Positions 22,031-44,233 of a stretch of DNA of 64,000 nt are shown piece after piece (the stretch's first letter is position 1; each line of letters starts with the position of its first letter). Source of the DNA: a candidate division KSB1 bacterium (GTDB lineage: Bacteria > Electryoneota > RPQS01); contig JACRMR010000002.1 of NCBI GenBank assembly GCA_016214895.1, positions 126,001 through 190,000 on the forward strand, read 5' to 3'. A model generated the notes under the pieces. The model did not search any database. It was given only the letters and a program-made list of their open reading frames with translations, and was not told the DNA's origin. Position numbers and translations under genes: made by a program.

Positions 22031-22061
22031 GATTCCGGCGGGGTCTGGAGACCCCGCTCGG
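22031..22061. repeat. Bulged-T hairpin element (locus A)
   Basis: GATTCCG is followed by the arm GCGGGGTC, loop TGGA, arm GACCCCGC, an unpaired T and CGG. It belongs to the same architecture as the elements at 24046, 24109, 35108 and 44033. Confidence 0.7.
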
Positions 22062-22190
22062 GGGGCCGGGGGCCGGAGACCGCGGTCGGGTTGGCGCAGC
22101 GGTTCCGGGCGGGTAACGCGCGTGTCAAGATCAGAGGTGCTGTCAGTCTCAGAGCGCTAACCCGCCTCGGCGATGCAGGCTCGCGCGGGC

Positions 22191-23738
22191 TCAGCCGCGA
22201 AACGACCACTCGCCGGTTTGGTCGGAGAGCTCGTACTGCGATTCGTATCGCTTGCCGTTCTTGGAAATATGATCTACGGCTTCGAGCAGCACCTGAAATT
22301 CCTCTTCGCTGACGGTGGGGGAGAAGCCGATGCGGACCCAGCCGGGTTTCTCGCCAATGTGGCCTTCGTCGAGACGGCACCGGATTTCGGAAGAGTGTTG
22401 CTCGTCGATGTGGAGCAACAAGTGACCATACGGTCCGGCGCACATGCAACCGCCGCGGACCTGAATTCCGTATAGATCGTTAAAGAGCGTGGCCGCGAGA
22501 TTGTGGTGAAGGCCCTGGAAGATCAAGGAAACCACACCCAGCCGTTTGGATTCGAGATTACCGAGCACGATTAGATTTTCATTGGGCAGCCACTGCCGCA
22601 ACGCGCGCCGCAGATAATCCTGCTCGATGCGTTCGATCCGCTCGGCGCCGATGGCCGCCTTGAGATCAAAGGCGAGTCCGGCCTGAATCGACTGCAGAAT
22701 CGGCGGCGTGCCGCCGGTCTCGCGATGCTCGATGGATGCGAGATAACGGTGATCCCACGGCGACGTGTAAAGCACGGTGCCGCCGCCCGGCTCCGCGGGA
22801 ACACGATTGGTGAAGAGCTTGCGATTGGCGACGAGCAGACCCGGTGTGCGCGGGCCGCCGAGGAATTTGTGCACGGAAAAGAAGATCGCGTCAAAATAGC
22901 CGTCCGGATCCGCCAGCGGATGCATGTCAACATCCACGTACGGACCGGCGGCGGCGAAATCAAAGAAGGCCAGCGCGCTATGCTGATGCAGCACGCGGGC
23001 CAGGCCGTGGCAGTCATTGAGGATGCCCGTAACATTCGAGGCCGCGCTGAACGTGCCGATCTTCCACGGGTGATCGCGGTAGCGTTCCAGTTTCGCATCG
23101 AGGTCGCCGACACTGATGCAGCCGTGCTCGTCAAAATCGATGTACACCGTATCGCCGATGGTCTCGCGCCAGGCGATGTCATTTGAGTGGTGCTCCATCA
23201 GGGAGCGGAAGATCACCGGTCGATCCGTGGCGGGAATCCGGTCCGTCCACTGATAGCGCTCGTCAAGCTGATCGGGAACCCGAATGCCGAGCACGCGAAT
23301 CATGCGGTTGATCGCACCCGTCGAGCCGCTCCCGACCGGAATCAGCACATCGTCCGCCGACGCGTGAAGATAGCCGGCGATGCGGGAGAAGGCGTTGTGA
23401 TAGTACTCCGTCATCAGCCGCCCGCCGTAGGTGGACTCCGTGTGCGTATTCGCCATGTACGGCAAGACGCGCTCGTTCAGCTCGTCCTCGACATCGAGAT
23501 GGCAGCGGCCGGAGGCGATGAAATCGAAGTAACGCAATGGACGCGGACCGAACGGTGTGGGGATTTCCACGTTGCTGCCGATTACGCGCTCGCGGATGTA
23601 TTGCATGAACAGCGCTTCGCGGCGCGAGCTTGAGGTCTGGACAGCGGCGCGCGGAGTGCGGGAACTCACGTTTACCGTGCGCTGACTGGTGGCGAAGGGC
23701 GGAGTGAGCGTTTCGGGAACCACAGTGGGGCTTGACAT
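22191..23738 (-). CDS. Class V aminotransferase (cysteine desulfurase-like)
   Basis: The 515-residue PLP enzyme has the fold-type-I features of class V aminotransferases. These are a nucleotide-like loop GSGSTGAINRM, Asp in FFDFAAAGPYVDVDMHP, the PLP Lys (about 291) in FFSVHKFLGGPRTPG, and RETGGTPP. A Cys pair in RGGCMCAGPYGHL near residue 435 lies where desulfurases have their mobile catalytic loop. Cysteine desulfurase or selenocysteine lyase activity is possible but not shown; no iron-sulfur scaffold gene is adjacent. The first 40 residues look unstructured. The frame also opens at TTG 23747, but ATG 23738 is more likely. Confidence 0.85.
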   Translation of the reverse strand: MSSPTVVPETLTPPFATSQRTVNVSSRTPRAAVQTSSSRREALFMQYIRERVIGSNVEIPTPFGPRPLRYFDFIASGRCHLDVEDELNERVLPYMANTHTESTYGGRLMTEYYHNAFSRIAGYLHASADDVLIPVGSGSTGAINRMIRVLGIRVPDQLDERYQWTDRIPATDRPVIFRSLMEHHSNDIAWRETIGDTVYIDFDEHGCISVGDLDAKLERYRDHPWKIGTFSAASNVTGILNDCHGLARVLHQHSALAFFDFAAAGPYVDVDMHPLADPDGYFDAIFFSVHKFLGGPRTPGLLVANRKLFTNRVPAEPGGGTVLYTSPWDHRYLASIEHRETGGTPPILQSIQAGLAFDLKAAIGAERIERIEQDYLRRALRQWLPNENLIVLGNLESKRLGVVSLIFQGLHHNLAATLFNDLYGIQVRGGCMCAGPYGHLLLHIDEQHSSEIRCRLDEGHIGEKPGWVRIGFSPTVSEEEFQVLLEAVDHISKNGKRYESQYELSDQTGEWSFRG

Positions 23739-23745
23739 GTTCACC

Positions 23746-23773
23746 AATCTATCAATGCGCGGACCATTGTCAA
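23746..23773 (-). promoter_or_regulatory. Promoter of the aminotransferase gene
   Basis: TTGACA (23768-23773) and TAGATT (23746-23751) are 16 nt apart. Transcription would start at or next to the A of the ATG, so the message may be leaderless. Confidence 0.5.
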
Positions 23774-24298
23774 GGGCGGGTCACTGACCAAAAACTTTTT
23801 GACCAAACGAAATGGGGTAAAGTCAATAAGGAACAAGCAGCAAGCGGCGAATTTGCCCCGTCGCGATGCGGTGATTTGGGGGGCATTCCTTGAGCGTCCC
23901 CGGGGTGGGTCAGAAATAGGCATGACAGGATTACTGATGTCAATGGCAATATAATGCTAAAGACGGCCCATGTCAAGAGGAATGTTTATTATTATGCACG
24001 CAAACATTGAACATAGAGATATCGAGAGGCGGCGGACGATGTCCCGATTCCGGCCGGATTGCGAAGACTTAACCCGGCTCGGCGGCTAAGGCTGGATTTG
24101 TGAATCCCGATTCCGGCCGGGTTGCGAAGACTTAACCCGGCTCGGCGGCCAACGCACATAGGACTATTGAGAGGCAAAGAGGGGAGTATCCTGACCCTCC
24201 CTCTATCCGGTTTCGGTGGGGGTCGGCACTTGACCGGACAGACCGGTATTGCCGCGATCTTCCGCCGGGGCACTTGGAGACGCACGGCCGCACGGCGG
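23774..24298. other. Gene-free region with hairpin repeats
   Basis: No coding frame is convincing. The region holds the two bulged hairpins at 24046-24148. It also holds a degenerate sequence near 24269 (GGCACTTGGAGACG) that resembles one arm and loop of the arrays at 28 kb and 39 kb. Confidence 0.5.
24046..24148. repeat. Two bulged-T hairpin elements in tandem (loci B and C)
   Basis: Both units read GATTCCG, an arm, loop GCGAAGACTT, the arm AACCCGGC, an unpaired T, CGGCGG. In the second the left arm is GCCGGGTT, a perfect 8-bp match. The first has GCCGGATT, one mismatch. Starts are at 24046 and 24109, 63 bp apart. Confidence 0.75.
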
Positions 24299-24327
24299 TT
24301 GCACTTGGGAGGCAAAAGCAGTATTTT
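24299..24327 (+). promoter_or_regulatory. Promoter of metH
   Basis: TTGCAC (24299-24304) and TATTTT (24322-24327) are 17 nt apart. The expected transcript has a leader of about 130 nt before the chosen metH start. I see no match to SAM or cobalamin riboswitch consensus in it. Confidence 0.5.
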
Positions 24328-24463
24328 TATACGTTAGGCCGGGGTGGGGACGCCTCGAAGCAGAGCATCCCCCTTCGTCCTCCGCAGGCGGCGGGGGAGA
24401 CCCGACTCGCCGGCGATGAATGTTCGTGGGTCTGGACTCGCGAAAGCGATTCAATCAAGAAAG

Positions 24464-27400
24464 ATGACTACTTTCAGTTCTGGAACGGCATTTCCGGCGG
24501 GGGAGAGCTTAGCCCGCGAACTACGCGACGATCTCACTCGCCGAATTCTGGTCATGGATGGCGCGACGGGGACCGGCCTCGAAGCATTGCGCCCGACCAC
24601 GGAGGATTTCGGCGGCGACGCGCTGGTGGGCTGCAACGAGGCGTTGCTCCTGCATGCGCCGCAAATCGTGCGCGCGCTGCACCAGCTCTATCTCGAGGCC
24701 GGGGCCGATATTCTGGAAACGAATACGTTCAACGGCTCGACCATTGTGCTCGCGGAATACGGGCTGCAGGATCAGACTTACGAGATTAATCGCTTAGCGG
24801 GCGAAAGCGCGCGCGCGGCGGCCGCGAAATTCGCCGCGAACCGGCGCGTGTATGTCGCGGGGTCGATGGGGCCGACGAACAAGGCGATCTCGATTACCGG
24901 CGGGATCACGTTTGACGAAATCGTGCGCTCCTACGCGCTGCAGTCCGCGGGATTGCTCGACGGCGGCGCGGACTATTTGCTGCTCGAAACGCAGCAGGAT
25001 ACGATCAACCTGAAGGCCGCGCTGCTGGGTTGCGACGAGGCGATGCGCAAGACCGGGCGGCAGGTGCCGCTGGCGGTGTCGGTGACGATCGAAGCGAACG
25101 GTTCGATGCTCGCCGGGCAGAATATCGAAGCGCTGTACTACACGCTCGCCGCGCGTGACCTGCTCTACATCGGCATGAACTGCGCGACCGGTCCGGAGAA
25201 GATGACGGATCACTTGCGCACGCTGGCGGGACTCTGCCATCTGCCGACGGCGTGTGTGCCGAATGCGGGACTGCCGAACACAGAAGGCAAGTACGACGAA
25301 GGGCCGGAGGTCTTTCACGATCTATTCGAGCGGTTCTGCGCGGAGCAGTTCGTAAATGTGATCGGCGGCTGCTGCGGCACATCGCCCGAGCATATTCGCG
25401 CATTGCGGAAGGTCGCCGATCATCATCGGCCGCGGAAACCGCAGGCGAAAGCGACGCGCCGCGCGCTGGCGGGGAGCGAGCCGCTGAAGCTTGACGAGTT
25501 CATCCGGCCCGCGTTTGTGGGCGAACGGACCAACGTGATCGGCTCGCGGAAGTTCAAACGGCTGATCGAGGAGGGGAAGTTTGAACTGGCGGCGGAGATC
25601 GGCCGCGAACAGGTCGTGCGCGGGGCGCACGTCGTCGATCTGTGCGCCGCGAATCCGGATCGCCATGAATTGTCGGATATGCTCGCGGTGCTGAAACCGC
25701 TGCTGCGGAAGGTGCGCGTACCGGTCATGATCGACTCGACCGACGAACACGTCGTCGAGCTCGCGCTGCAGAATATCGGCGGCAAGGCGGCGATCAATTC
25801 GATTAATTTCGAGGACGGGGAGCAGCGGCTCGAAAAGGTGTGCCCGATCGCGAGGAAGCACGGCGCGGCGGTCGTGTTCGGACTGATCGACGAAGACAAG
25901 CAGGCGGGGATGGCGGTGACGCTGGAGCGCAAGCTGGCGATCGCGGAGCGCGCGATGCACACGTTGACGCAAGTGTGGGGATTCGATCCGGGGGAGATCA
26001 TCTTCGATCCGCTGGTGTTTCCGTGCGGAACCGGCGATCCGAACTACGTGGGCGCCGCGCGGGCGACGGTCGAGGGAATTCGCGAAATTCGCAAGCGCTT
26101 TCCCGAGGCGCTCACGATTTTGGGGATATCCAATGTGAGTTTCGGTCTGCCGCCGGCGGGCCGCGAGGCGCTGAACTCCGTGTTCCTGTATGATTGCACG
26201 CTGGCGGGGCTGGACATGGCAATCGTGAACACAGCCGGGATCGAGCGCTATGGAACACTCAGTCCGGAAGCGGTGGCGGTCTGCGAAAACGTGCTCTACA
26301 AGGGTGATGCGGAGTCGATCGCGGCGTTTGCGGCGTTTTACCGTGAAGCGAAGACCGCGGTGCGGGCGGATGAGCTGGCGCACCTGCCGGTCGCGGAACG
26401 CCTGGCGCGGTGCATCGTGGATGGAACCCGCGACGGCATCGAGCTGATGCTCGACGAGTTGCTGAAGGCACAGTCACCCCTCGAAATCATCAACGGTCCG
26501 CTGATGGCCGGGATGAAAGTGGTCGGCGAGTTGTTCGGCGCGAACAAGCTGATCGTGGCCGAAGTGCTGGAGTCCGCCGAAGTGATGAAAGTCGCGGTGG
26601 ACTACCTCAAGCAGTTTCTGAAGCCGGGTGAACGATCGGCGGCGCGCGGACGCATGCTGCTGGCGACGGTGAAGGGCGACGTGCACGACATCGGCAAGAA
26701 CCTGGTGGACATGATTCTGTCGAATAATGGCTACGAGGTGGTGAATCTGGGGATCAAGATTCCACCGGACACCTTGATTGAAGCCGTGCACCTCCACAAG
26801 CCGGACTTCATCGGGCTGTCCGGACTACTCGTGCGGTCGGCGCAGCAGATGGTGGTGACGGCAGAGGACTTAACGTCGGCGGGGATCGATCTGCCATTGA
26901 TGGTCGGCGGCGCGGCGCTCACGAGGAATTTCACACTCACCCGCATCGCTCCGGCCTACACCGGGCCGGTGTTCTATGCCAATGAAGCAATGGATGGACT
27001 ACAGCTCGCCAACCGCTTGACGGACGAGACGCTGCGACCGGGCCTGGAGAGCGAGTGGCGCACGATGGGCGAAAAGGCGATACGCAGTGTGAAGGAATCC
27101 GCACCGCAATTGCCGCCGGCGCCGTCGCAGTCGCTCTATGAAGAATGTCCCGTTCCGCCGCCGCCGGATCTTGAATTGCATATTGATCTCGAGATTCCGG
27201 CGCGGGAGGTCTTTCCCCTCGTTTCGCGCGCGATGTTGTACGGTAAACATCTCGGCTTGCGGCTGGCGTCTTCCCGACTCGATGATCCGAAGGACAAACA
27301 GGCGCAGGAATTGCGGAGACACGTTGAGCGCGTGTTTGAGATGGCCATCGAAGAAAAACTGATTGTACCGCGCGGGACGTGGCGCTGGTTCCCGGTCGCG

Positions 27401-27949
27401 AGCGAGCAGGAGACGGTGCGCGTATTCGACCCGGGGAGCACGCAGACCCTGGCGACGTGGACGTTCCCGCGCGAGCGCAGCGCACCGTTCCGCTGTGCGG
27501 CGGATTGGGTGCGGCCGCGACGGCTTGGCGGCCACGATTATCTCTGCCTGTTCGTGACCACGGCGGGTGACAGCGTGCAGGTGAAGGCGAAAGCGCTCCA
27601 CGAGCAGGGGGAGCTGCTGTCCTCGCACATTCTGTCGGCATTGGCGATCGAAATGGCGGAGGCGACGGCGGAATGGCTGCATCGGCGGATTCGCGCGGGA
27701 TGGGGATTCGCCGATCCGCCCGAGTTCACGTGGCAAGACCTGATTCGCACGACATATCGCGGCATCCGGTTGTCGTTCGGCTACCCCGCGTGTCCGAACT
27801 TGGAAGATCAAGTTCCGCTGTTCAAGCTGCTGACGCCGGAGCAATCCATCGGAGTGTCCCTGACCGATGAAATGATGATGGTGCCGGAGTCGAGTGTTTC
27901 GGCGCTGGTCTTTCATCATCCGAACGGGCAGTATTTCGCGGCGCAATAG
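24464..27949 (+). CDS. metH: Cobalamin-dependent methionine synthase
   Basis: The 1161-residue protein has all four MetH modules in order. The homocysteine-binding barrel (1-330) has MDGATGTGLE, ETNTFNGS and the zinc Cys pair in GGCCGTSPEHI. The folate-binding barrel (about 345-620) has ERTNVIGSRKF. The cap and B12-binding domains have the cobalamin His in KGDVHDIGKNLV and GLSGLLVRS. The C-terminal reactivation domain binds AdoMet, with RLSFGYPACPNLEDQ. It transfers methyl from methyl-tetrahydrofolate to homocysteine in the cytoplasm. The frame opens at 24344, but the first 40 residues look non-natural; ATG 24464 with AAGAAAG upstream fits the family. The gene stands alone, ending at a bidirectional terminator. 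Confidence 0.95.
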   Translation: MTTFSSGTAFPAGESLARELRDDLTRRILVMDGATGTGLEALRPTTEDFGGDALVGCNEALLLHAPQIVRALHQLYLEAGADILETNTFNGSTIVLAEYGLQDQTYEINRLAGESARAAAAKFAANRRVYVAGSMGPTNKAISITGGITFDEIVRSYALQSAGLLDGGADYLLLETQQDTINLKAALLGCDEAMRKTGRQVPLAVSVTIEANGSMLAGQNIEALYYTLAARDLLYIGMNCATGPEKMTDHLRTLAGLCHLPTACVPNAGLPNTEGKYDEGPEVFHDLFERFCAEQFVNVIGGCCGTSPEHIRALRKVADHHRPRKPQAKATRRALAGSEPLKLDEFIRPAFVGERTNVIGSRKFKRLIEEGKFELAAEIGREQVVRGAHVVDLCAANPDRHELSDMLAVLKPLLRKVRVPVMIDSTDEHVVELALQNIGGKAAINSINFEDGEQRLEKVCPIARKHGAAVVFGLIDEDKQAGMAVTLERKLAIAERAMHTLTQVWGFDPGEIIFDPLVFPCGTGDPNYVGAARATVEGIREIRKRFPEALTILGISNVSFGLPPAGREALNSVFLYDCTLAGLDMAIVNTAGIERYGTLSPEAVAVCENVLYKGDAESIAAFAAFYREAKTAVRADELAHLPVAERLARCIVDGTRDGIELMLDELLKAQSPLEIINGPLMAGMKVVGELFGANKLIVAEVLESAEVMKVAVDYLKQFLKPGERSAARGRMLLATVKGDVHDIGKNLVDMILSNNGYEVVNLGIKIPPDTLIEAVHLHKPDFIGLSGLLVRSAQQMVVTAEDLTSAGIDLPLMVGGAALTRNFTLTRIAPAYTGPVFYANEAMDGLQLANRLTDETLRPGLESEWRTMGEKAIRSVKESAPQLPPAPSQSLYEECPVPPPPDLELHIDLEIPAREVFPLVSRAMLYGKHLGLRLASSRLDDPKDKQAQELRRHVERVFEMAIEEKLIVPRGTWRWFPVASEQETVRVFDPGSTQTLATWTFPRERSAPFRCAADWVRPRRLGGHDYLCLFVTTAGDSVQVKAKALHEQGELLSSHILSALAIEMAEATAEWLHRRIRAGWGFADPPEFTWQDLIRTTYRGIRLSFGYPACPNLEDQVPLFKLLTPEQSIGVSLTDEMMMVPESSVSALVFHHPNGQYFAAQ

Positions 27950-27966
27950 GAGAGTGACTTCGGGAT

Positions 27967-28160
27967 CGCGAAAGTCCTGAAAAGAGCGAGGGGCACATGA
28001 AGACATGTGCCGCCAATTACATGAGCGGCGAAGGTCATGAAGACATGTGCCGCCAATCACATGAGCGGCGAAAGTCCTGAAGAGTGCGAGGGGCACATGA
28101 AGACATGTGCCGCCAATCACATGAGCGGCGAAGGTCATGAAGACATCTGCCGCCAATAAC
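27967..28160. repeat. 101-bp tandem repeat with palindromic core
   Basis: A 101-bp unit starting GCGAAAGTCC occurs at 27967 and again at 28068. Each unit holds the hairpin GGCACATG-AAGA-CATGTGCC followed by G and CC, plus a second shorter copy of ATGAAGACATGTGCCGCC and a GCCGC/GCGGC stem. The hairpin is related to those at 39 kb and 44 kb. Confidence 0.8.
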
Positions 28161-28173
28161 GCCAAGATGCAAA

Positions 28174-28206
28174 CGCGCGGGTCAGGACCCGCGCGCTTTC
28201 GTTTTT
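28174..28206. terminator. Bidirectional terminator between metH and the beta-helix gene
   Basis: CGCGCGGG and CCCGCGCG form an 8-bp stem with a 6-nt loop, followed on the plus strand by CTTTCGTTTTT. It serves the convergent genes on both sides. Confidence 0.75.
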
Positions 28207-28210
28207 AGCA

Positions 28211-31200
28211 CTATCGAGGAGGCGGTGGCGCGCGGAAGGGCGGAGGTTCCGTGTCCGCTGTGACCATGTAGAAGCGACGGCTAAGCGGCGAGAAGTTCAG
28301 GTCCTCAAACTGCGTGTCCACGGTGATTCCAATTTCATTGGCGGGAATCGGTTCCACCGCGATCGTATCCGACGCGTACACGTGATAACTTGCCGCGCGT
28401 TCGACGGACAGCCAGTGCAGCAGCAGACGACCGCCCTCCAAGTCACAGGTCAGATAGGGAACGGTGTCCGGCGGAATGGCCACCGTGTACTCATCCGCGC
28501 CGATATCCGGCGTCGCGGAGCGAAGCTCACCGTCGATATCGCTCGTCAGCGCGGCCAGCGCCAGCCCCAGTCCGTCCACCGCGACGGAGTCGGGGCGAAT
28601 GTGGAGATCGGACGCGCTGATGAATCCGGGCTCGCGACTGTAGCCGTGCAAATCGTACGCGGCGGCTTGCCAGGCCGCGAAGGTCACAAAGGATTGGGTA
28701 CCGAGCCGAGCGACGGAAAAGGCCGGAGCCGACCCGAAGATATCGTTGTAATCGCTCTGCAAGCCTTCGCCGGTGGCGTGCAGGATCGCGTAATTCGCGC
28801 TGCCGGTCTCCCGTGAGACCAGGATGTTGTTCTGCAGGGTATGGGTGCTGGAATTGGAAATGAACACGCACGCGATTTCGCCGGCCGGTGTTACTTCGTC
28901 GAGCAGGATACTGTTGTTGAACACGAGATTCGTGCCGGACGACAGGTAGATCGCGTTGATGCGCAACGACCAGACATCGGAAAAATCATAAATAAAGTTG
29001 TTGGTGATCGTGACGGCGGCGCCGGCGGCCGCCGCGGCATAGACGCCGACGGCGCGATTAGTCACGGAGAGCGAATGATCGCTGAAGCCATGAATCCGAT
29101 TCGCGTTGATGACGGCGCTGCCGCCGTTGTCGAGGCTGGCGACGAACACGCCGTAACAGGGTGCCGCCATTTCCGTGGGGAATCCGGGTTCAATGTCGTT
29201 GCCTTCGACCAGGGCCGCCACCTGATTGTCGAGCGAGACGCCGTAGCGCACGGCGGTAATCGAGCAGCCGCGAATGCTGTTGCCAAAGGACTGCGCCACT
29301 GCGCCGCCCGAGAATCCGATCCCGGTATAGGTGCCCGAAATCACGCAAGCGACCACGGTGTTACTGTCATTGCGGTCCAGGTCGAAGTGAATGCCGATGG
29401 AGTTCGAGTTCGTGGAATCCGGCCCGCGCACGAGGCAATTCGACAATGTGTTGTGCGTGGCGGTCTGGTGCAGGAGGACCGCTTCCGTCGCGGAGAGACC
29501 GGCACGGATATCGAATCGAGAGAGCGTGACGTAAGAACACCCGCGAAGTTCAACCACGGCTTGTCCCGCCGGATTAGTTAGCACGGGCGGCGACGCGGAG
29601 TCGGCGGCCAGAAAGACGACCGGGTTCGCGGCCGATGCGCCGGGAATCGGCGTGAGCAGCAGGGACTCGAAATAGTTGCCGGCGGCCACGGCGAGCAGCA
29701 CCGAATCGGCGACGCCGCGCAACGTCAGGTGTCGAGCGGCGACGCCGAGGTTCGCAAAGTCCGAAACAGAGCCGCCAACCTGATAGCTGCCCTCGAGCGG
29801 CGGTCCGACCACCGTGACCGGATAGGCGACACTGTCATTCAAAGGAATCGCGTCGCCGGGCAGGAACGCCTTGACCTTGAGACTTCCGTCCTGCAGGTCC
29901 GTGGACGGTGTCAACCACCACAGGCTGACGGTGTCGATCTCGCCGGGCGTCAACGAGATCACGAGTTCGTCCAGCGGAGCATCGTTGAAGAACAGGCGAA
30001 CCGGAACTTCGAGCTGCGCTTGAGTTCCGGCGTTGCGCACGATGGCGACAACCTGGCCAACCGAGTCCGCAGGAATGGTCGGCAGCGGTTCCGCCCACTG
30101 TACGGAATAGTCGTTGGCGGCCGCTACATAATCGTATTCATCCGCGCCGATATCCGGCGGACTCTGGCGGTAGTCGAGGTCGATATCGAGGCTCAGTCCG
30201 GACAGGTCGAGGCCGCGGCCATCCGCCGTCGCAACATTCCGAAGGACGTGCAGATCCGTTTCATTCACGAAGCCGGCATCGCCGGATACACTGTGCGAAT
30301 CCGCGGCGGTGCCCGCCGTCCAGGCCGCGAGCGACGGATAGAGCGTCGCGCCCGCGCGGCCCATGTAGAACGGCGCGCCCGCCGACAACCGCGAACCGTC
30401 GATGAGATTGTAATCCGAAACCAATGCTCCCGCGGCGCGAACCAGCGCATAGGAGTTGTTATCGGAGTCCGAGATACGGATGCTGTTGTTGCGAACGGCT
30501 GCCGGAGTCACCGAGGTGTCATAGATCGCGATGACGTCCCCCCCGGGCGGGATGTCGGACAGGCAGATACTATTGTGGTCAACCTGCGCAGCGCCGGAAC
30601 GCAAACATACGGCGAAGACCGAGCCGCCGCTGGATGTCAGCCGCGAGATGAAGTTGTTGCAGATTTCCGCGAGACCCGTCCCCGCGTTGGAGTAGATGCC
30701 GTACTGCGTGCCGACGATGCCCGCGCCCGTGATGCGGTTTCGTTCGATGCGACAGACCTGCGCGGCCGTATGCGAGCCGATATAGAGCCCGGCGCAGGAG
30801 ACGGTCGCGCCGGCATATCCGCAGGTGATCCGGTTGTCGGTGTACGCGGCCTGCTGCTGATAGTCCGCGCGCAGTCCGTAGCGGCAGTCGGAGATGTCCC
30901 CGTTGTCAAAGACATTCCCGCTATCCGCGAGACTGGCGGTGCCTTCGAGTCGCACGCCGATGTACGCGCCGCTGACGGCCAACGAGTGAAACGAGTTCCC
31001 GTCATTGCCGCCGCCATAGACGCGCAAGCCATAGGCGGTTGTCATGGTCTGCGACGAGCCACGGACGCTGCCGCCGGAAATCGTGTTACGGTCGGCGCCG
31101 TTGGTCAGAACCACGGAGGTCGTGGAGGGTAGCACCGCCTCGAAGTCGATTCCGTCAACGGCGACGAAATCGGCACCGTTCAGCGTCAGCGCGGGGTCGC

Positions 31201-34161: not shown

Positions 34162-34193
34162 AGCCTAACATACCTCTACGCAAGGCGCACAGA

Positions 34194-35048: not shown

Positions 35049-35107
35049 TAGGAATCCCGAAAACGCGCACCCGATGCTCCGCGTTGCGTTGGGGGAGGCA
35101 AGCGCGG

Positions 35108-35137
35108 GATTCCGGCGGGGACACAGTCCCCGCTCGG
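35108..35137. repeat. Bulged-T hairpin element (locus D)
   Basis: GATTCCG, arm GCGGGGAC, loop ACA, arm GTCCCCGC, an unpaired T, CGG. It lies between convergent genes and may also help end transcription. Confidence 0.7.
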
Positions 35138-35209
35138 CGAGGCCGAACATTGAACGGGCGACCCGAGAGGCCGCCCGTAGAGAAAGTCCGGAATAGAATC
35201 TTGGCGGCG

Positions 35210-36829: not shown

Positions 36830-36832
36830 GGC

Positions 36833-37278
36833 TTAGTTCCCTGTGCAGTCAAAGTGAATCTTCGCCCGACAGAGGTCAACTCCGGGCTCGCAAGCGGTGG
36901 GAATTGGACCCATGATGACATCCAGCGTGATCCTGTAGTTGTGCCCGGCGGTCAATTGCACGGTCGGGGCACCCGCCGCGCAGCCGTCAATGCTGTTGGT
37001 GAAGGTGAAGTTGAGCAGTTCATTCTGGTATCCGGGGGTCTCATCCAGTAGCAGAAAGCTGTAGAGGTAGTTGGCGCAGATGTACGTGTATTCGTACTTG
37101 TACGTGCCGGTGACGCTTTCCGTCCACGTCGCATCTTTGGCCGTAAGACCGGAGGTGACTCTCGCCACAAACGGCCCCTGAACTTGGGCCGACGCGGTTT
37201 GCGAGGTGGCGAAGAAGTTAATTGCCATGAGCGCAATGATGAGAATTGCGCTCAGACGATGGGGGGGGTGAATTTCAT
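36833..37278 (-). CDS. Small secreted protein with frameshift at a poly-C run
   Basis: The mature part (about 120 residues, from AQVQGPFVARVTSGL to the end, with four Cys such as CAAGAP, CEPGVDLCRAKIHFDC) has no recognised family. A good start (GAGGA, 7 nt before ATG 37278) gives MKFTPP, then the frame runs into eight C (37261-37268 on the minus strand) and stops after 8 codons. With nine C it would continue HRLSAILIIALMAINFF to TASAQ, a standard signal peptide joined to the mature part. So either the gene is switched off by slippage, or one base is missing. It lies just upstream of the beta-helix gene, 4 nt apart. Confidence 0.6.
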
Positions 37279-37346
37279 GATGTTTTCCTCTTGGTTGCTT
37301 AAGTCGAGATTTGGTACATTCGCTGCCGGCCGCCCAACTCAACTAT

Positions 37347-37375
37347 ATCTTATATCACCGGACGCACAATGTCAA
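37347..37375 (-). promoter_or_regulatory. Promoter of the poly-C secreted gene
   Basis: TTGACA (37370-37375) and TAAGAT (37347-37352) are 17 nt apart. The transcript probably covers the small gene and the beta-helix gene behind it. Confidence 0.55.
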
Positions 37376-37405
37376 GAGTCCGAGACAAGATTGAGAAATT
37401 AGTTG

Positions 37406-37434
37406 TTGCAGATCAGCCATTGTGTTCATATCTT
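37406..37434 (+). promoter_or_regulatory. Promoter of the M32 carboxypeptidase gene
   Basis: TTGCAG (37406-37411) and TATCTT (37429-37434) are 17 nt apart. Divergent from the promoter at 37347-37375. Confidence 0.5.
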
Positions 37435-37444
37435 GCACACCTGC

Positions 37445-37462
37445 TGCGACAATAGTGTCGCA
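37445..37462. promoter_or_regulatory. Perfect inverted repeat, candidate operator
   Basis: TGCGACA-ATAG-TGTCGCA is a perfect 7-bp inverted repeat placed just after the expected transcription start of the carboxypeptidase gene, where a repressor dimer could block transcription. It could instead be an RNA hairpin in the leader. Confidence 0.45.
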
Positions 37463-37541
37463 TGACCCTCCAAACAAACGGCGCTCGCCGGACTGATCGC
37501 GTCGTCATTTCCAAATCTTCAACTTCAACACAGATCACAGT

Positions 37542-39053
37542 ATGGCTGATGCTCTCCACCTCTACGACGAACTCGTCACACGGTACAAGGAATATGCGGT
37601 GCTGTCCTCGGTTACGGGAGTGCTGCACTGGGATATGCAGGTGATGATGTCACCCAAGGGTGCCGAACGCCGCGCCAATCAGATGGCGCTGCTCTCCGGC
37701 ATCATGCACGACCGACTCACCGCGCCACGCATCGGCGAGCTGGTCGAGCGGCTCTCGGTCTCGCCGAACGGACTTTCGGACGCGCAGCAGGCGAACCTTC
37801 GCGAGATCGGACGCGACTACCGACTGGCGACGAAAGTCCCGAAGGAGTTGGTCGAAGAAATGAGCCGGCAACAGTCGGTCAGTCACGAAGTTTGGGCGAA
37901 GGCCCGCGAAGTCGGCGACTTCCCGATGTTCGCGCCGCATCTCGAAAAGCTGGTGGCGTTGTCCAAGCAGAAGGCCGAGTATCTTGGCTATGTGGACACG
38001 CCGTACGACGCGATGCTGGACCTCTACGAGCCGGGCGGAACGACCGCCTTTTTCACGACGCTGTTTGACCAAGTCAAGGCCGCGAACGTGCCGCTGGTCA
38101 AACGCATCGTTGACTCGCCCGTGAAGGCGGACCGCCGATTCCTGAGTAATGAATACGATCCGGAGTTGCAGAAGCAGTTTGGACGGGACGTGATGAAGCA
38201 GCTCGGATTCGATGCCAAAGGCGGACGGCTCGACACGTCGATCCATCCGTTCTGCAGCGGAGCCAAGGGGGATATCCGGATCACGACACGGTACAATCCG
38301 CGCGCACCGCAGCAGGCGCTGTTCGGGATCATTCACGAAACCGGCCACGCACTCTATGAGCAGGAGGTCAGCGCGGAGCATCTCGACACGCCGCTGTCGG
38401 AAGCGCTCAGCATGGGCATGCATGAGTCGCAGTCCCGGATGTGGGAGAATCTGGTGGGTCGCGGCAAGCCGTTCTGGACGTACTTCTATCCGCGACTCCA
38501 GAGCTACTTCCCGCAGCAGACGGAGGGAGTATCCATGGAGCAGTTTGTGCTCGCCATCAACCATGTGGAGCGTTCGCTCGTCCGCGTCGAAGCGGACGAG
38601 ATGACTTATGATCTGCACATTATTCTGCGATTCGAGATCGAGCGCGATCTGTTCGCCGGGAAAGTGTCCGTTTCCGACCTGCCAAGGGTGTGGAACCGGA
38701 AGATCGAAGAATACCTCGGACTAACGCCCAAGAACGACGGCAAGGAAGGCGTGATGCAGGACGTCCATTGGTGCGAGGCCTACTTCGGCTACTTCCCGTC
38801 CTACAGCCTGGGTAACTTCGCCGCCGCACAATTCTGGGGAGCCATGCGGCGCGAGCTGCCGCAGCTGGACCAGAAGATGGAGCGCGGAGAGTTCGGCGAC
38901 ATTCTGGCCTGGCTGCGGGAGAAGGTACACCTCCACGGACGGCGCTTCGGGCGGGACGAGCTGATGACGCGGGCGACCGGCAAGGCGCTGGATACCGCGG
39001 ACTATGTACAGTACCTCCGCAATAAATACTCGGAGTTGTACAGGCTGAGCTAA
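37542..39053 (+). CDS. M32 family metallocarboxypeptidase (carboxypeptidase Taq type)
   Basis: The 503-residue protein is almost all helical and has the M32 signatures. The zinc motif HETGH (265-269) is followed by the third ligand Glu295 in HESQSRMWEN. HPFCSG and DIRITTRY lie just before it. YFPSYSLGNFAAAQ, the family's C-terminal motif, is also present. It removes C-terminal amino acids from peptides, probably in the cytoplasm because there is no signal peptide. It is transcribed alone, with a promoter and possible operator upstream; the ribosome site is weak. Confidence 0.93.
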   Translation: MADALHLYDELVTRYKEYAVLSSVTGVLHWDMQVMMSPKGAERRANQMALLSGIMHDRLTAPRIGELVERLSVSPNGLSDAQQANLREIGRDYRLATKVPKELVEEMSRQQSVSHEVWAKAREVGDFPMFAPHLEKLVALSKQKAEYLGYVDTPYDAMLDLYEPGGTTAFFTTLFDQVKAANVPLVKRIVDSPVKADRRFLSNEYDPELQKQFGRDVMKQLGFDAKGGRLDTSIHPFCSGAKGDIRITTRYNPRAPQQALFGIIHETGHALYEQEVSAEHLDTPLSEALSMGMHESQSRMWENLVGRGKPFWTYFYPRLQSYFPQQTEGVSMEQFVLAINHVERSLVRVEADEMTYDLHIILRFEIERDLFAGKVSVSDLPRVWNRKIEEYLGLTPKNDGKEGVMQDVHWCEAYFGYFPSYSLGNFAAAQFWGAMRRELPQLDQKMERGEFGDILAWLREKVHLHGRRFGRDELMTRATGKALDTADYVQYLRNKYSELYRLS

Positions 39054-39094
39054 GGCGGAAGACCGGCGGCGCTGTTGTCCTATACGTCGTGGTC

Positions 39095-39404
39095 GGGGCA
39101 CATTGGAGACAAGTGCCGCCGCGGGGTGATCGGGGCGGTCGGGGCACTTGGAGACAAGTGCCGCCGCGAGGTGATCGGGGTGGTCGGGGCACTTGGAGAC
39201 AAGTGCCGCCGCGGGGTGCTCGGGGTGGCCGGGGCACTTGGAGACAAGTGCCGCCGCGAGGTGGTCGGGGTGGTCGGGGCACTTGGAGACAAGTGCCGCC
39301 GCGAGGTGATCGTCGTGGTCGGGGCACTTGGAGACAAGTGCCGCCGCGGGGTGATCGGGGCGGTCGGGGCACTTGGAGACAAGTGCCGCCGCGGGGTGAC
39401 AAAA
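39095..39404. repeat. Seven-copy 45-bp tandem repeat array
   Basis: Units start at 39095, 39141, 39186, 39231, 39276, 39321 and 39366 (the first has one extra A). Each holds GGCACTTG-GAGA-CAAGTGCC, a hairpin with an 8-bp stem and a GNRA-type loop, then GCCGCG and a GC-rich linker that varies. All six frames stay open because 45 is a multiple of three, so the translated repeats are not evidence of a protein. Confidence 0.9.
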
Positions 39405-39603
39405 CGGGCGGCGCAGCCTGCCCCTACACCTGGCGGGGTATGCTGAAACATTCTTGGTGGTCGGTATATCATAGAAGTGGGCAGGTCGGGCGACCTGCCC
39501 ACTTCCCGTTCTGAGAGGCTTACGCCAAGATTTTCTCGTCAGCTTGATAGAATCAGTTATTAAAAATCAATTATTTGCGTGTTTCACATTGCGAATTCCC
39601 ATA

Positions 39604-39632
39604 TTGACTCTTTGGTCGGTTTGTTTTATTTT
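39604..39632 (+). promoter_or_regulatory. Promoter of the MarR-TonB receptor operon
   Basis: TTGACT (39604-39609) and TATTTT (39627-39632) are 17 nt apart. A small inverted repeat TAAC-N5-GTTA just downstream (39655-39667) might be a site for the MarR protein itself. Confidence 0.55.
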
Positions 39633-39673
39633 ACGTATGTACCTTTCATGTGCTAACATTACGTTAACAAATT

Positions 39674-40198
39674 TTGAACGACCAAGAACAGCACTCCCTC
39701 GGCCCCTTTGCGGTTGACTTAGAGTCCCGAGAGGACATCTCAAATTCGATTCCGCGCATGGTGATCATGCTGGGGGACCTGTATGATCGGGGTGGCGACA
39801 CCTATATTTTCGGGCCGCATGGCCTGACGACCGCCAAGTACGCCATGCTGGCGACGATCGCAGGCAGTCCGGTTCCGCTCTCGATGACGCAGCTCCGGGA
39901 ATGCGTTATGAAGAGCGCCGCCAACCTGACGCAGATGATCGATGCCCTTGAGCGCGACGGATTGGTGCGCCGGCAAGCAATGCCGAAGGACCGCCGGGTC
40001 AACCTCGTGGAAATCACGGATGCCGGACGTGATCGCGTGGCGCAGGTTGAGGCGTTCATGCGGAGCACGATGGCCGCGTACTTTCAAGGTTTCTCCGATA
40101 CGGAATTGCGTGAGTTCGCCCGACTGTTACAACACTTCGCGGCGCATGAGCTCGCGGCGATGAAAATCCCGCCAATTCCACCACATCAAACCACCTGA
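39674..40198 (+). CDS. MarR-family transcriptional regulator
   Basis: The 174-residue protein has the winged-helix pattern of MarR proteins: LTTAKYAMLATIAGS, then LRECVMKSAANLTQMIDALERDGLV (recognition helix), then the wing RRQAMPKDRRVNLVEITDAG. It should bind operator DNA as a dimer and respond to a small molecule. It is the first gene of an operon with a TonB receptor, whose expression it probably controls. The start is TTG 39674 with no ribosome site; ATG 39758 is an alternative that would shorten the N-terminus by 28 residues. Confidence 0.85.
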   Translation: MNDQEQHSLGPFAVDLESREDISNSIPRMVIMLGDLYDRGGDTYIFGPHGLTTAKYAMLATIAGSPVPLSMTQLRECVMKSAANLTQMIDALERDGLVRRQAMPKDRRVNLVEITDAGRDRVAQVEAFMRSTMAAYFQGFSDTELREFARLLQHFAAHELAAMKIPPIPPHQTT

Positions 40199-40205
40199 CA
40201 GGAAG

Positions 40206-42485
40206 ATGAAGAAATGCAATCGACGCCGAACCGTTTGCGGCGTCACGAGTTGGAAAGCGATTGTGATCGCGTTACTGGCGGCGCAGGCCGCGTGGGCCGG
40301 CGTCACGGTTTCCGGCAAGATCAAAGACCGGGAGACGGGCGAGTCCGTGCCCAGTGCATCCGTACAAGTCATGGGCACCGGCCGCGGTGCCGCCACGAAT
40401 GTGGAAGGTTTCTTCTCGATTCCCGATTTGCAGCCGGGCAGCATTACCTTACTTATCAGTTCGCTGGGATACGCCGCGCTCAAGAAAGAGCTCATGCTGG
40501 AAGCGGGCAATGACATGCAGCTTGACTTGAAGGTCGTGCCCGAGGCCGTACAGATGATGGAAATCAATGTCGAGGCCGAGATCCAGAATCGCGGCGAGCG
40601 CGAGTACACGCCGCAGGTCGCGCAATATACGATGGAGACCAAAGAGCTGGCCAAGCTGCCGCGGCTCGCCGAAGCGGACCTGTTTCGCTCCCTGCAGTTT
40701 ATTCCCGGTGTGCTGCCGACTTCGGACTTCTCCTCGGAACTCAACATCTGGGGCGGATCGAGCGATCAGAACTTGATTCTGCTGAACGGGATTGAGGTCT
40801 ATAAACCGACGCACCTCGGCGGTCTGTTCTCGACGTTCAACATGGATGCGATCAAAGATGTCAAGTTGATCAAGGGCGGATTTCCGGCGAAGTACGGCGG
40901 CCGGCTGTCGGCAGTGGTCGATGTCGCGGATCGCGAAGGCAATCGCAACCAGATGCATGGCAAACTCGGGATTTCGCTGTTGTCAAGTCAGGCGACGCTC
41001 GAGGGGCCGGTCCCGCGCGGTTCGTGGCTGTTGGCCGGGCGGCGAACATATGTGGACGCCGCGACCAAGCTGCTGAGTTCCGCCGGGGTGATCGACGAGA
41101 CCAGCGAGTTCCCGTATTACTTCTATGATCTGAACGCCAAAGTCACGCGCGACTTCGCGAACGGCGATCGCCTGACTCCGTCCGCATATCTCGGTTCCGA
41201 CGTGCTCAATATTACGTCCACCACGGAGGACCGGATCCATCTCGACTGGGGCAACAAGACCTACAGCCTGCCCTTCGTTCACATTTGGAATCACAAGCTG
41301 TTTTCCACGAACACGCTCGCGGGCAGCCACTACAAGTCCACGATGCGGTTCGAGACCGCCGAAGAGTGGTCCGAATTCCGCAATCGTGTGAATGACTTCA
41401 CACTGAAGTCGGACTACACGTGGTTTGCCAACGCGCGGAACACGTTCGATTTCGGGATCATGGCCAAGGACCTCGAATGCCTGTTCACCGTGCTGAGTAA
41501 CACGACAACGTTCACGGACGGCACGTATCACGGTTGGCAGTATGCCGCCTACCTGCAGGACGACTTTCGCGTCAACCATACGCTTACGCTCTCGCCGGGG
41601 CTGCGGGTCGAACACAATACGCTCTCCGATCAGACCGAAGGGTTGCCGCGGTTCGCGGTCAAGCAAGAGCTGACGCCGACTTCTTCCATCAGCGCGGCGA
41701 CCGGAATCTATGTGCAGCCATTTCAGCAGATCACGTTCGGCGACAATTTCGCCTCGCTGTTCAATTCCTACGTGCTGCTCGATAAATCGTTCAGCCCGAA
41801 CCGGGCCTATCACTATGCCTTGACCTATGAGAACGACTGGGAGGGGCCATGGAAGCTCTCGGCCGGATCGTACTTCAAGGATTTTGCGCGCGTGATCGAA
41901 TGGAATCCGTACTACATCCCCAAGGAAAGTGACGAACTGGGCGATATCTTCACGGTCGGCGACGGGCAGGCTTATGGCGCGGACGTCTATTTGCAAGGGC
42001 ACTTCGACCGCTACACGATTCTGGCCGGATACGGGGTGGGACGCGCGGATCGCGCGTTCCCGTTCTGGGACGAAGGCGACAAGTATCCCGCGAGCTATGA
42101 TCGCCTGCACAATTTGAATCTGTTCGTCAGCAAGAAGATCCGCAAACGCGGGAGTCTCGAAGCGCGCTTCAACTATGGCAGCGGGAATCCGGTCACCCGT
42201 GCCGAGGGGATCTACTCGCCGGGCATCGGTCTGCCGCCCTACTTCTTCGATCCGGGAGACAAAAACGGTTATCGCCTGCCGGCCTACAACCGACTCGACG
42301 TCGCCTACCGGCTGCGGTATGAGGGCAAGCGCTGGACGTTCAGTCCGTACATCGAGATCACCAATCTTTACAACCAGAAGAACATTCTGACCTTTGCCTA
42401 CGAGCTGGGGCCGAATCCGGTCAAGATCAACGAGACCGGACAGATTCCGTTCCTGCCCTCCATCGGCTTCACCGCGGAGTTTTAA
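40206..42485 (+). CDS. TonB-dependent outer-membrane receptor
   Basis: The 759-residue protein has a signal peptide (to AQAAWAG). A carboxypeptidase-regulatory-like domain follows (VSGKIKDRETGESVPSASVQV, about 35-110), typical of FCB receptors. Next come a plug domain (PGVLPTSDFSSELNIWGGSSDQNLILLNGIEVY) and a long beta-barrel ending in Phe, as outer-membrane proteins do. It should take up a large or scarce substrate using TonB energy; the substrate is unknown. It starts 7 nt after the MarR gene and is followed after 3 nt by the DUF4249-like lipoprotein, a usual partner. Confidence 0.92.
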   Translation: MKKCNRRRTVCGVTSWKAIVIALLAAQAAWAGVTVSGKIKDRETGESVPSASVQVMGTGRGAATNVEGFFSIPDLQPGSITLLISSLGYAALKKELMLEAGNDMQLDLKVVPEAVQMMEINVEAEIQNRGEREYTPQVAQYTMETKELAKLPRLAEADLFRSLQFIPGVLPTSDFSSELNIWGGSSDQNLILLNGIEVYKPTHLGGLFSTFNMDAIKDVKLIKGGFPAKYGGRLSAVVDVADREGNRNQMHGKLGISLLSSQATLEGPVPRGSWLLAGRRTYVDAATKLLSSAGVIDETSEFPYYFYDLNAKVTRDFANGDRLTPSAYLGSDVLNITSTTEDRIHLDWGNKTYSLPFVHIWNHKLFSTNTLAGSHYKSTMRFETAEEWSEFRNRVNDFTLKSDYTWFANARNTFDFGIMAKDLECLFTVLSNTTTFTDGTYHGWQYAAYLQDDFRVNHTLTLSPGLRVEHNTLSDQTEGLPRFAVKQELTPTSSISAATGIYVQPFQQITFGDNFASLFNSYVLLDKSFSPNRAYHYALTYENDWEGPWKLSAGSYFKDFARVIEWNPYYIPKESDELGDIFTVGDGQAYGADVYLQGHFDRYTILAGYGVGRADRAFPFWDEGDKYPASYDRLHNLNLFVSKKIRKRGSLEARFNYGSGNPVTRAEGIYSPGIGLPPYFFDPGDKNGYRLPAYNRLDVAYRLRYEGKRWTFSPYIEITNLYNQKNILTFAYELGPNPVKINETGQIPFLPSIGFTAEF

Positions 42486-42488
42486 GCC

Positions 42489-43385
42489 ATGAAAACAAGA
42501 CTCAACTATCTCGCCGGGCTGTGCCTGACGGTGATGATGCTCGCGGGCGCGGGCTGCGACAACTCGGGGGAGTCCAACTTCGTCGAGCAATACGTCCTGG
42601 ACGGCTTCATGCCGCTGGGACAGCCGCTGCGGATCCGGTTGACCAAGAGCGTGGACATTGACAACTACTACGATGGACAGGCGCTCGGCGTTGCCGGGGC
42701 GCAAGTGGTGATCCGGGAGTCGCTGAACGGAGACACCGCCGAGTATGCGCTCGTCGCCGATACCACCGGTCCCGTCGGCAACTACATTGCGACGACGCCA
42801 TCAGCGATCGCGCGCAGTGGTTACAGCTACTCGTTGCGTGTGGACCTCGACGGCCAGGTGATTACCGCCCGGACGTCGCCCGCACCGCCCCCGGTTCGCC
42901 TGGACAGTTGTTACAACGGCAGCGCCAAGGTCGAGAGCTTCGCGGATTCCACCGACCCCGAGACATATGAGTACCGGGAGGGCAACTACTACGGGCTGTT
43001 TTTCAGCATGGACGCCGGCGCGGCGGGCATCAATTTCTTTATCGAGAATCTCGAGCCGGACTGGTATTCGAATGAGGACCGTGGGGTCTCCGGCCATAAT
43101 GGCCCGGACCAGAGCAACGTCTGGGCATGGACGATTCGCGACGGCAACTACTTTGCGGTGCCGCCGGTGGTGCTCGGCTTTCAGGGGCGCCACCGCGTGC
43201 GCGCGATGACGTGCGACTCCGCCGCGTACGACTATTTCCTGACGTTGTTTCCGGGTGACCCGAATTCGAATCCGACGACCAACGTGACCGGCGCGCTGGG
43301 GTTGTTCTCGGTCTATGACGCGGATACGGCGTATTTTTGTATGATGGACCCGGAAGCGGATGTTCACGACTGGTGCGACCGATGA
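42489..43385 (+). CDS. DUF4249-like lipoprotein, TonB receptor partner
   Basis: The 298-residue protein has a lipoprotein signal (TVMMLAGAGCDNSG). An opening beta segment EQYVLDGFMPLGQPLRIRLTKS is followed by VAGAQVVIRESLNGD and YSLRVDLDGQVITARTSPAP, as in DUF4249 proteins encoded beside TonB receptors in Bacteroidota. The C-terminal half is richer in aromatic and Asp residues. It is probably anchored in the outer membrane and helps the receptor, perhaps by holding substrate. Family assignment is by pattern and gene order. Confidence 0.75.
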   Translation: MKTRLNYLAGLCLTVMMLAGAGCDNSGESNFVEQYVLDGFMPLGQPLRIRLTKSVDIDNYYDGQALGVAGAQVVIRESLNGDTAEYALVADTTGPVGNYIATTPSAIARSGYSYSLRVDLDGQVITARTSPAPPPVRLDSCYNGSAKVESFADSTDPETYEYREGNYYGLFFSMDAGAAGINFFIENLEPDWYSNEDRGVSGHNGPDQSNVWAWTIRDGNYFAVPPVVLGFQGRHRVRAMTCDSAAYDYFLTLFPGDPNSNPTTNVTGALGLFSVYDADTAYFCMMDPEADVHDWCDR

Positions 43386-43933
43386 CGCGCGAGCAGGCGT
43401 GGGAGCTGCTGTGCGAATGGACGCCCTCTGAGAGCCTGCGCAAGCACATGTTGGCGGTGGAAGCCGCGATGCGATTCTATGCGCGCCGCTTCGACGAGCC
43501 GGAAGAGGAATGGGGCATCGTAGGCTTGCTGCATGACTTCGACTATGAACGCTACCCGACCGAACAGGACCATCCGTACCGGGGAGTTGAACACCTCAGG
43601 ACTCAGGCAGTGCCGGAGGCATGGCTGGAGGCGATTCTGGCGCACGCCGCGTACACCGGCGTTGAACCGACATCGCTGATGGCCAAAACGCTGCTGGCGT
43701 GCGACGAACTGACCGGGTTGATCACCGCGACGGTTTACGTCCAGCCGACCAAGAAGATCGCCGATCTGAAGCCCAGTTCGGTGCGGAAACGCATGAAGGA
43801 AAGTGGGTTCGCGCGCAAGGTGAACCGCGAGGATATCGTGCGCGGAGCCGAACTGCTTGGAATTAGTCTCGACGAACATATTGTGAACGTCGTGGAGGCG
43901 ATGCGGGAATCGGCCGAGGCGCTGGGGATGTAA
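43382..43933 (+). CDS. HD-domain hydrolase-like protein
   Basis: The 183-residue protein has a compact HD domain: the metal-binding His in LRKHMLAVEAAM, HDFDYERYP as the HD pair, then HPYRGVEHL and ILAHAAYTG, and an Asp in CDELTGLI. Such proteins are metal-dependent phosphohydrolases acting on nucleotides. The ATG overlaps the stop of the lipoprotein gene by 4 nt (ATGA), so it is the last gene of the MarR operon and translation is coupled. A link between the receptor and nucleotide hydrolysis is not obvious. Confidence 0.85.
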   Translation: MTREQAWELLCEWTPSESLRKHMLAVEAAMRFYARRFDEPEEEWGIVGLLHDFDYERYPTEQDHPYRGVEHLRTQAVPEAWLEAILAHAAYTGVEPTSLMAKTLLACDELTGLITATVYVQPTKKIADLKPSSVRKRMKESGFARKVNREDIVRGAELLGISLDEHIVNVVEAMRESAEALGM

Positions 43934-44024
43934 GAGGAACCCGCGGATCCGCGGAATTGCAAGAAAGCGGCTGTCCGGAATGTCCGGACCGCCGCTTTGC
44001 CTTATTTGGCGGTGCCTCGGCGGG

Positions 44025-44233
44025 GACTTGCCGATTCCGGGCACATGGAGACATGTGCCTCGGCGGTTCACTTCGGCGGTGCCCCGGCGGACAAGGACTT
44101 GCCGATTCCGGGCACATGGAGACATGTGCCTCGGCGGTTCACTTCGGCGGTGCCACGGCGGATGGAGACTTGCCGATTCCAGGCACAAGGAGACATGTGC
44201 CTCGGCGGTTCACTTCGGCGGTGCCTCGGCGGG
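44025..44233. repeat. Three-copy 71-bp repeat array with bulged-T hairpins (locus E)
   Basis: Units start GACTTGCCGATTCCGG at 44025, 44096 and 44167; a partial fourth begins at 44234. Each contains GATTCCG, arm GGCACATG, loop GAGA, arm CATGTGCC, an unpaired T, CGGCGG, then TTCACTTCGGCGGTGCC. The third copy has a damaged left arm (GGCACAAG). Confidence 0.85.

Follow-up and report, generated by a model that had tools for sequence, protein, structure and literature searches.

We analyse a family of short hairpins, seven of which lie in a stretch of 64,000 nucleotides, the window, from a candidate division KSB1 bacterium (contig JACRMR010000002.1, positions 126,001 to 190,000). We conclude, with a probability of about 0.93, that they are non-autonomous single-strand DNA elements of the repetitive extragenic palindromic (REP) type, that are recognised by Y1/HUH transposases, and very probably owe their cutting and spread to them; these enzymes are called RAYT (REP-associated tyrosine transposase, or TnpA_REP) and are encoded elsewhere in the genome. 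The original prediction, made from the window, had proposed Y1 substrates of either the RAYT or the IS200/IS605 kind; the RAYT reading is supported by four Y1 genes that match the RAYT model, by hairpins bracketing these genes, and by the co-occurrence of hairpins and RAYT clade in related bacteria. Below, L, G and C numbers label loci, genomes and contigs.

The hairpins of the window and their genome-wide family

A direct reading of the sequence finds all seven hairpins at the predicted coordinates:

22031 to 22061, + strand: REP-like hairpin with T bulge, arms GCGGGGTC/GACCCCGC, loop TGGA (sequence; covariance model E=4.2e-9; DNA fold z=-3.1)
24046 to 24082, + strand: REP-like hairpin with T bulge, arms GCCGGATT/AACCCGGC with one mismatch, 10-nt loop (sequence; covariance model E=2.3e-5)
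24109 to 24145, + strand: REP-like hairpin with T bulge, arms GCCGGGTT/AACCCGGC, twin of 24046 (sequence; covariance model E=5.5e-7)
35108 to 35137, + strand: REP-like hairpin with T bulge, arms GCGGGGAC/GTCCCCGC, loop ACA (sequence; covariance model E=2.2e-6)
44033 to 44063, + strand: REP-like hairpin with T bulge, arms GGCACATG/CATGTGCC, loop GAGA, first unit of a 71-bp tandem array (sequence; covariance model E=4.4e-9)
44104 to 44134, + strand: REP-like hairpin with T bulge, arms as at 44033, unit 2 of the 71-bp array (sequence; covariance model E=4.4e-9)
44175 to 44205, + strand: third and degenerate unit of the 71-bp array, with a GATTCCA head and partly mismatched arms GGCACAAG/CATGTGCC (sequence; covariance model E=3.7e-6)

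The frame proposed for them, namely GATTCCG, an arm, a loop, the complementary arm, an unpaired T and CGG, is found in six of the seven copies, with arms of 8 or 7 nucleotides; the copy at 44175 reads GATTCCA, and its outer CCG/CGG stem is consequently broken. Pairing of the arms is kept in most copies, perfectly so at 24109, with one mismatch at 24046 and with mismatches at 44175. A covariance-model search of the window returns exactly these seven as strong matches, with E-values from 4e-9 to 2e-5 and the next match at E=0.02; these values are obtained partly by construction, since some of the window copies were among the genome copies used to build the model. DNA folding gives z-scores between -2 and -4.5 for the window copies and, in some of them, allows a second CCG...CGG pairing outside an ATT bulge.

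In the whole genome of 3.21 Mb, the pattern GATTCCGN{16,36}TCGG has 447 matches, many of which are unpaired coding background, versus 4 for the reversed pattern. Location was evaluated on a sample of 1.4 Mb of genome stretches, about 87% coding according to our own simple codon-usage gene caller: copies with the exact head are intergenic in 86 cases and coding in 19, and, among fuzzy copies, at least six of the seven arm pairs are formed in 98 of 141 intergenic ones versus 4 of 263 coding ones. The covariance model has at least 153 matches in the source genome, in agreement with short, extragenic palindromes of high copy number.

The pairing depends on which arms stand together: when the right arms of 54 distinct inner sequences are shuffled, the mean pairing falls from 5.93 to 4.09 +/- 0.15 of 7. 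Covariation was computed on 40 distinct 33-mers aligned without gaps, for which pairing was not a selection criterion. Standard pairs occupy 92.5% of the pair cells, and double changes are seen at 8 of the 11 pairs. The number of double-change cells is 78, versus 28.1 +/- 4.3 in shuffled data, and the covariation score is 0.463 versus 0.156, the observed value being reached in 0 of 500 shuffles. Sliding the partner by 1-3 columns brings pairing down to 35-46%. The shuffles leave the relatedness among copies in place; the effect is large all the same. The predicted covariation, and the whole-genome check by covariance model proposed along with it, thus come out in favour of a multi-copy, intergenic, covarying family.

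The bulged base was predicted to be a T. Among 75 intergenic hairpins whose left side is GATTCCG with at most one substitution, 54 end in TCGG, 19 in GCGG and 2 otherwise, so that the prediction describes most copies and leaves out a G-bulged minority; the tally of T or G bulges and outer CCG/CGG stems was made without conditioning on the tail. These copies are part of a wider class. An outer 3-bp stem followed by a single 3' bulge occurs in 142 of the 639 intergenic hairpins of the sample with arms of at least 7 bp, and just three outer stems are common: CCG/CGG (T or G bulge, 72 hairpins), CGG/CCG (G, 29) and TGG/CCA (G, 24). The idea that the bulge is always T had to be rejected, since G bulges (75) are as frequent in the class as T bulges (60). 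The heads go with the outer stems: [CA]GATT before CCG, [CA][CA]GAG before CGG, and CCCGA or CCGAT before TGG.

RAYT genes and the hairpins that bracket them

As originally stated, no Y1 transposase lies inside the window; a search elsewhere in the genome finds four Y1 genes. All four proteins exceed the cut-off of the NCBIfam model for RAYT, NF047646, which is also matched by the 18 members of the clade that were scanned. The clade, 28 related RAYTs in ten genomes (model score >170 bits), has the catalytic motifs DH[LIF]H and Y[MIVL]xxNP. A search with its profile finds PDB entry 4er8, the TnpA_REP of E. coli (E=1.1e-14), and an AlphaFold2 model of one member (predicted local distance difference test, pLDDT, 91) has the same entry, a RAYT bound to a REP hairpin, as its best PDB match (E=3.5e-8). 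In a scan of 84,980 species genomes, made with one peptide pattern that divergent members could escape, close members (46-59% identity) were found only in metagenome-assembled genomes, and all else was at most 35% identical. The labels of these genomes are candidate division KSB1, Calditrichaeota, unclassified bacterium and, once, Candidatus Puniceispirillum, probably a mislabelling; one of them has the accession prefix RPQS01, which is also the lineage given for the window and a class name within Candidatus Electryoneota (PMC10439189), so that the host lineage is probably Electryoneota.

All four RAYTs of the genome are bracketed by hairpins in which an outer stem of 3-4 bp and an inner stem of variable sequence are separated, on the 3' side, by one unpaired base. 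The frame GATTCCG..T-CGG itself stands on both sides of L033 (C7:32422-32898), and also of L102 and L107; at L033 the downstream copy reads ATTCCG-GCAGGGA-aggaa-TCCCTGC-T-CGGCG, and the upstream copy is the same in inverted form. L032 lies within arrays of TGG-GGCACTTG..CAAGTGCC-G-CCA, while the flanks of L034 and L031 contain CGG-GGCATGTC or GGCAGGTG..-G-CCG. The bulged type accounts for 41 of 88 hairpins beside clade RAYTs. In coding DNA it makes up 57 of 991 hairpins, and near Y1 genes outside the clade 1 of 36; further frames beside RAYTs were identified by eye.

The association extends to other genomes. The covariance model (R1), built from the copies of the source genome, was run on 41 genomes, one per species and several of them incomplete, and its match counts per genome are lower bounds, since no more than about 150 candidates were scored in each. 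It matches 13 genomes: all 10 that have the RAYT clade (>170 bits) and 3 of the 31 that do not (Fisher p=2.6e-7, phylogeny ignored). Of two congeners compared, G010 has both RAYT and hairpins, and G006 has neither.

The hairpins also follow the tree of the enzymes. On the RAYT tree, the identity of the bulged base, T or G, changes a single time over 17 rows, the labels having been given by eye from the flanking sequence ahead of tree construction. Other Y1 genes, those with CTAG-tailed hairpins, fall in a separate clade. A strict assignment of each hairpin type to one clade was tried and rejected: L031, L099 and L186 carry mixed T, G or A frames, hence flanking hairpins are not always cognate.

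A second Y1 clade of the same bacterial family (L083, L085, L089, L091 and L104) has flanking hairpins with CTAG tails or ACTAG-like heads, and makes up a distinct REP system, whose enzymes have the residues W-Q-x-G-Y-W-S-E.

The residues of E. coli TnpA_REP that contact the GTAG head are Q95, H101 and R104 (PMC6006769). Canonical RAYTs have Q at W+1 in 56 of 59 cases, H or R at W+7 in 56 of 59, and R at W+10 in 57 of 59; the corresponding counts among 21 clade members are 3, 0 and 0. Such a loss is expected if the head has ceased to be GTAG. Near the clade RAYTs L093, L096 and L108 there are a few classical hairpins with a GTAG head, for example GTAG-GGACATGG-cctg-CCATGTCC, so that canonical REPs coexist in those genomes.

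Signs of movement

The original prediction suggested looking for empty sites in relatives. In G010, a unit of 830 bp made of a RAYT and its hairpins sits between two conserved genes, where the congener G006 has an unrelated spacer of 115 bp; the precise junction cannot be aligned, the intergenic spacer being too diverged. In the comparison of G005 with G009, the gap is occupied by other DNA and offers no clean intergenic empty site.

Hairpins are also found inside RAYT genes. The reading frame of L034 holds a complete cognate hairpin of 40 bp (L034:1454-1493), CCGAGCGG-GGCATGTC..GACATGCC-GCCGC, and the open reading frame (ORF) of L095 contains several in-frame REP copies. The site, variable and placed before a conserved W, has no hairpin insert in 18 of 21 clade members, and L031 has a shorter insertion there. 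These copies resemble the REP-in-tnpA insertions reported for subclass 2.4. Movement is thus suggested by presence and absence of sequence only, in the form of one RAYT unit and of inserts in two RAYT genes; the search for a precise empty site thus succeeded in part.

Alternative explanations

Several observations weigh against an assignment to RAYT. The canonical 5' GT[AG]G tetranucleotide, 0-2 nt from the foot of the hairpin, is missing: of the 1278 strands of intergenic hairpins, only 22 have it in front. Flanking hairpins are inverted at the T-bulge RAYTs L033, L102, L107 and L184, and direct at L031, L032 and L034, that is, at three of the four RAYTs of the genome; copies in arrays mostly share one orientation (25 same, 2 inverted), unlike the inverted pairs of classical REPINs. 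Three genomes, G001, G004 and G018, have hairpins and no clade RAYT, and a precise empty site of a single REP was not found in intergenic DNA.

In G018, from another family of the same phylum, locus L265 has a copy GATTCCG-GCCGGGTTGTGAACCCGGC-TCGGCGG, and the genome has at least about 12 model matches and no RAYT clade. Its hairpins possibly stem from horizontal spread or from the loss of a RAYT.

Could the hairpins act in RNA, as terminators or as elements that stabilise mRNA in 3' untranslated regions, the link with transposases being incidental? They are intergenic and stable, and many lie 3' of a gene, at a median distance of 100 nt from the upstream stop; in addition, secondary roles of that kind are known for the REPs of other bacteria (PMC6006769). 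However, TTTT follows within 12 nt in only 2 of 75 copies, and neither strand is favoured with respect to co-directional genes (17 same, 23 opposite, p=0.43), on which grounds we reject intrinsic terminators. A function in RNA also leaves the bracketing of RAYTs and the co-occurrence with their clade unexplained, and we consider it most improbable. No more credible is the proposal that the hairpins are ends of IS200/IS605 insertion sequences, or miniature inverted-repeat transposable elements derived from them, rather than REPs linked to RAYT. The Y1 fold is common to the IS200/IS605 enzymes, and an unpaired stem base is also present in the substrates of IS608 and ISDra2 (PMC8266576). Yet the proteins that pass the RAYT model all miss the cut-off of the IS200 model, NF033573, two of them with 27.2 and 22.3 bits versus 55 and the other two with no match, and this half of the original prediction is abandoned. 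The four Y1 genes are, moreover, divergent single copies, not near-identical multi-copy elements, and the best structural match is 4er8. Most of the Y1 proteins have, beside the tyrosine, a motif of type NP[VL][RK]xG, given as RAYT-specific by Nunvar 2010 (PMC2817692).

It may also be asked whether the spread of the repeats is due to replication slippage, template switching or gene conversion of palindromes, with RAYTs merely located in repeat-rich intergenic regions. The many copies in tandem arrays, with a spacing of 40-170 bp, are what such processes would yield, but solitary dispersed copies prevail (31 of 48 intergenic regions). Nor would slippage account for a fixed head and bulge, for a bulged base that follows the branches of the RAYT tree, or for the co-occurrence across genomes, with both partners absent in G006; we hold this account to be quite unlikely.

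Stem words and orphan copies

The frame is common to several genera, and the stems differ: GCAGGGA at L033, GCCGGGTT at L102 and L107, GGCAGATC near L093, L099 and L261, and GCAGGGTC at L259. In the 1.4-Mb sample, the stem word of a RAYT that the genome still has is found in about half of the bulged hairpins (66 of 142). The word GCCGGGTT, found at 24046 and 24109 in the window, flanks RAYTs in other genera (L102, L107, L093) and none in the source genome. Near-identical copies of this hairpin, abundant and mostly 85-100% identical, occur in G005, G009, G002, G004 and G010; the orthologous neighbour gene of 24046 and 24109 is only 70-77% identical in those genera, and the intergenic DNA does not align. 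As the RAYT of this word is absent from the source genome, the copies at 24046 and 24109 look like orphans after RAYT loss, a process known to leave orphan REPs (PMC3686654), and the same appearance is shared by the other hairpins without the word of a resident RAYT. If the stem must pair but its sequence changes from one RAYT lineage to the next, the variety of stem words is the footprint of several present and past lineages.

A possible mechanism and its relation to known systems

For elements served by RAYTs, we infer the following as the most likely course of binding, cleavage, strand choice, copying and mobilisation. The hairpin would fold in single-stranded DNA, for example at the replication fork. 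The RAYT would then read the fixed frame, that is, the 5' head, the outer stem of 3-4 bp and the single base flipped out 3' of the inner stem, the head being (C)GATT for the T-bulge type and [CA]GA-G or CCGA for the G-bulge types. The inner stem would be bound by its structure, with pairing required and sequence free to drift in each RAYT lineage. The tyrosine would next nick the hairpin, with copying or joining elsewhere to follow. In the REPs of E. coli, the unpaired state of the bulge is crucial, not its sequence, and IS608 reads an unpaired T in the stem (both PMC8266576).

The closest known system is that of E. coli REP and TnpA_REP (subclass 2.2 of Quentin 2018, 4er8), which shares a Y1 HUH RAYT, a gene flanked by hairpins, an intergenic location, hundreds of copies, and imperfect hairpins whose unpaired bases matter for recognition (PMC8266576). 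In the E. coli hairpin the 5' head is GTAG and the bulge, a mismatch of two bases, lies in mid-stem, whereas here the head is (C)GATT or contains GA, and the bulge consists of one base, placed 3' where the inner stem meets the outer one; the clade RAYTs, unlike TnpA_REP, have lost H/R at W+7, R at W+10 and mostly Q at W+1. The REP classes of Stenotrophomonas and Pseudomonas (Nunvar 2010, 2013) share the fixed head, the compensating stems, the cognate RAYT/REP pairs and the orphans, features already known for GTAG REPs (PMC2817692, PMC3686654, PMC3733652); they have GT[AG]G heads and form inverted doublets, and the portions of these papers available to us do not describe a 3' single-base bulge combined with an outer stem that stays fixed. 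In TnpA_Y1 subclass 2.6 (Bacteroidetes) and in class 3 (Quentin 2018, PMC6006769), the Y1 genes have multi-copy hairpins without GTAG at their flanks, and the CnGA foot of class 3 resembles the CCGA before G-bulge hairpins here. By their description both are set apart, with NHVH and a Yxxx[x]Q-type motif in class 3, and NHxH and YIH[QN]NP in subclass 2.6, against DH[LIF]H and Y[MIVL]xxNP here. With the ends of IS200/IS605 elements (IS608, ISDra2) the hairpins share a single-strand structure and an unpaired base read by a Y1 enzyme; here, unlike there, we see no insertion sequence, RAYT genes that are divergent single copies, and hundreds of solitary hairpins.

As far as the literature consulted shows, the combination of RAYT clade and hairpin design, with no GT[AG]G head, lost GTAG contacts and a T or G bulge according to branch, is new. 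We lean slightly towards a stronger proposal, in which this would be a REPtron subclass not previously described and confined to one uncultured lineage, whose RAYT dropped the recognition of GTAG and reads a GA-containing head and a single bulged base, the switch between T and G with the branch of the enzyme amounting to a natural recognition code. How a RAYT chooses its hairpin and cut site has been worked out mainly for gammaproteobacterial GTAG REPs. The present clade offers 28 RAYTs whose cognate hairpins vary in stem, outer stem, head and bulged base; as these changes follow the enzyme tree, the roles of guide, bulge and stem are directly testable by swapping natural pairs. Searches based on GTAG heads only will miss REP systems of uncultured phyla.

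Other repeats of the window

Two further groups of units in the window were absent from the seven copies listed above:

39094 to 39391, + strand: seven 45-bp units of a sister G-bulge type, CGG-GGCACTTG-gaga-CAAGTGCC-G-CCG (sequence; tandem repeats; weak model matches at 39184, 39319 and 39364)
27968 to 28160, + strand: two 100-bp units with GGCACATG-aaga-CATGTGCC hairpins, frameless or degenerate and without the GATTCCG head (sequence; direct repeat; weak model matches at 27991 and 28091)

The first array, which the original prediction did not list, has the stem word GGCACTTG of the arrays that flank the RAYT L032 (C3:161284-161766). The second is probably made of decayed G-bulge copies.

An Rfam scan of the window found nothing but one tRNA. 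Close to the tRNA gene (19737-19809) lie two near-identical hairpins of 28 nt, AGCGGGCTTTCCCATCG[AG]GGAGCCCGCT, at 19343-19370 and 19542-19569, with a spacing of 199 bp; they are not of the bulged type. At 51004-58326, an ORF of 2440 amino acids contains many degenerate internal repeats of about 250 nt, and its product is probably a repetitive surface or secreted protein.

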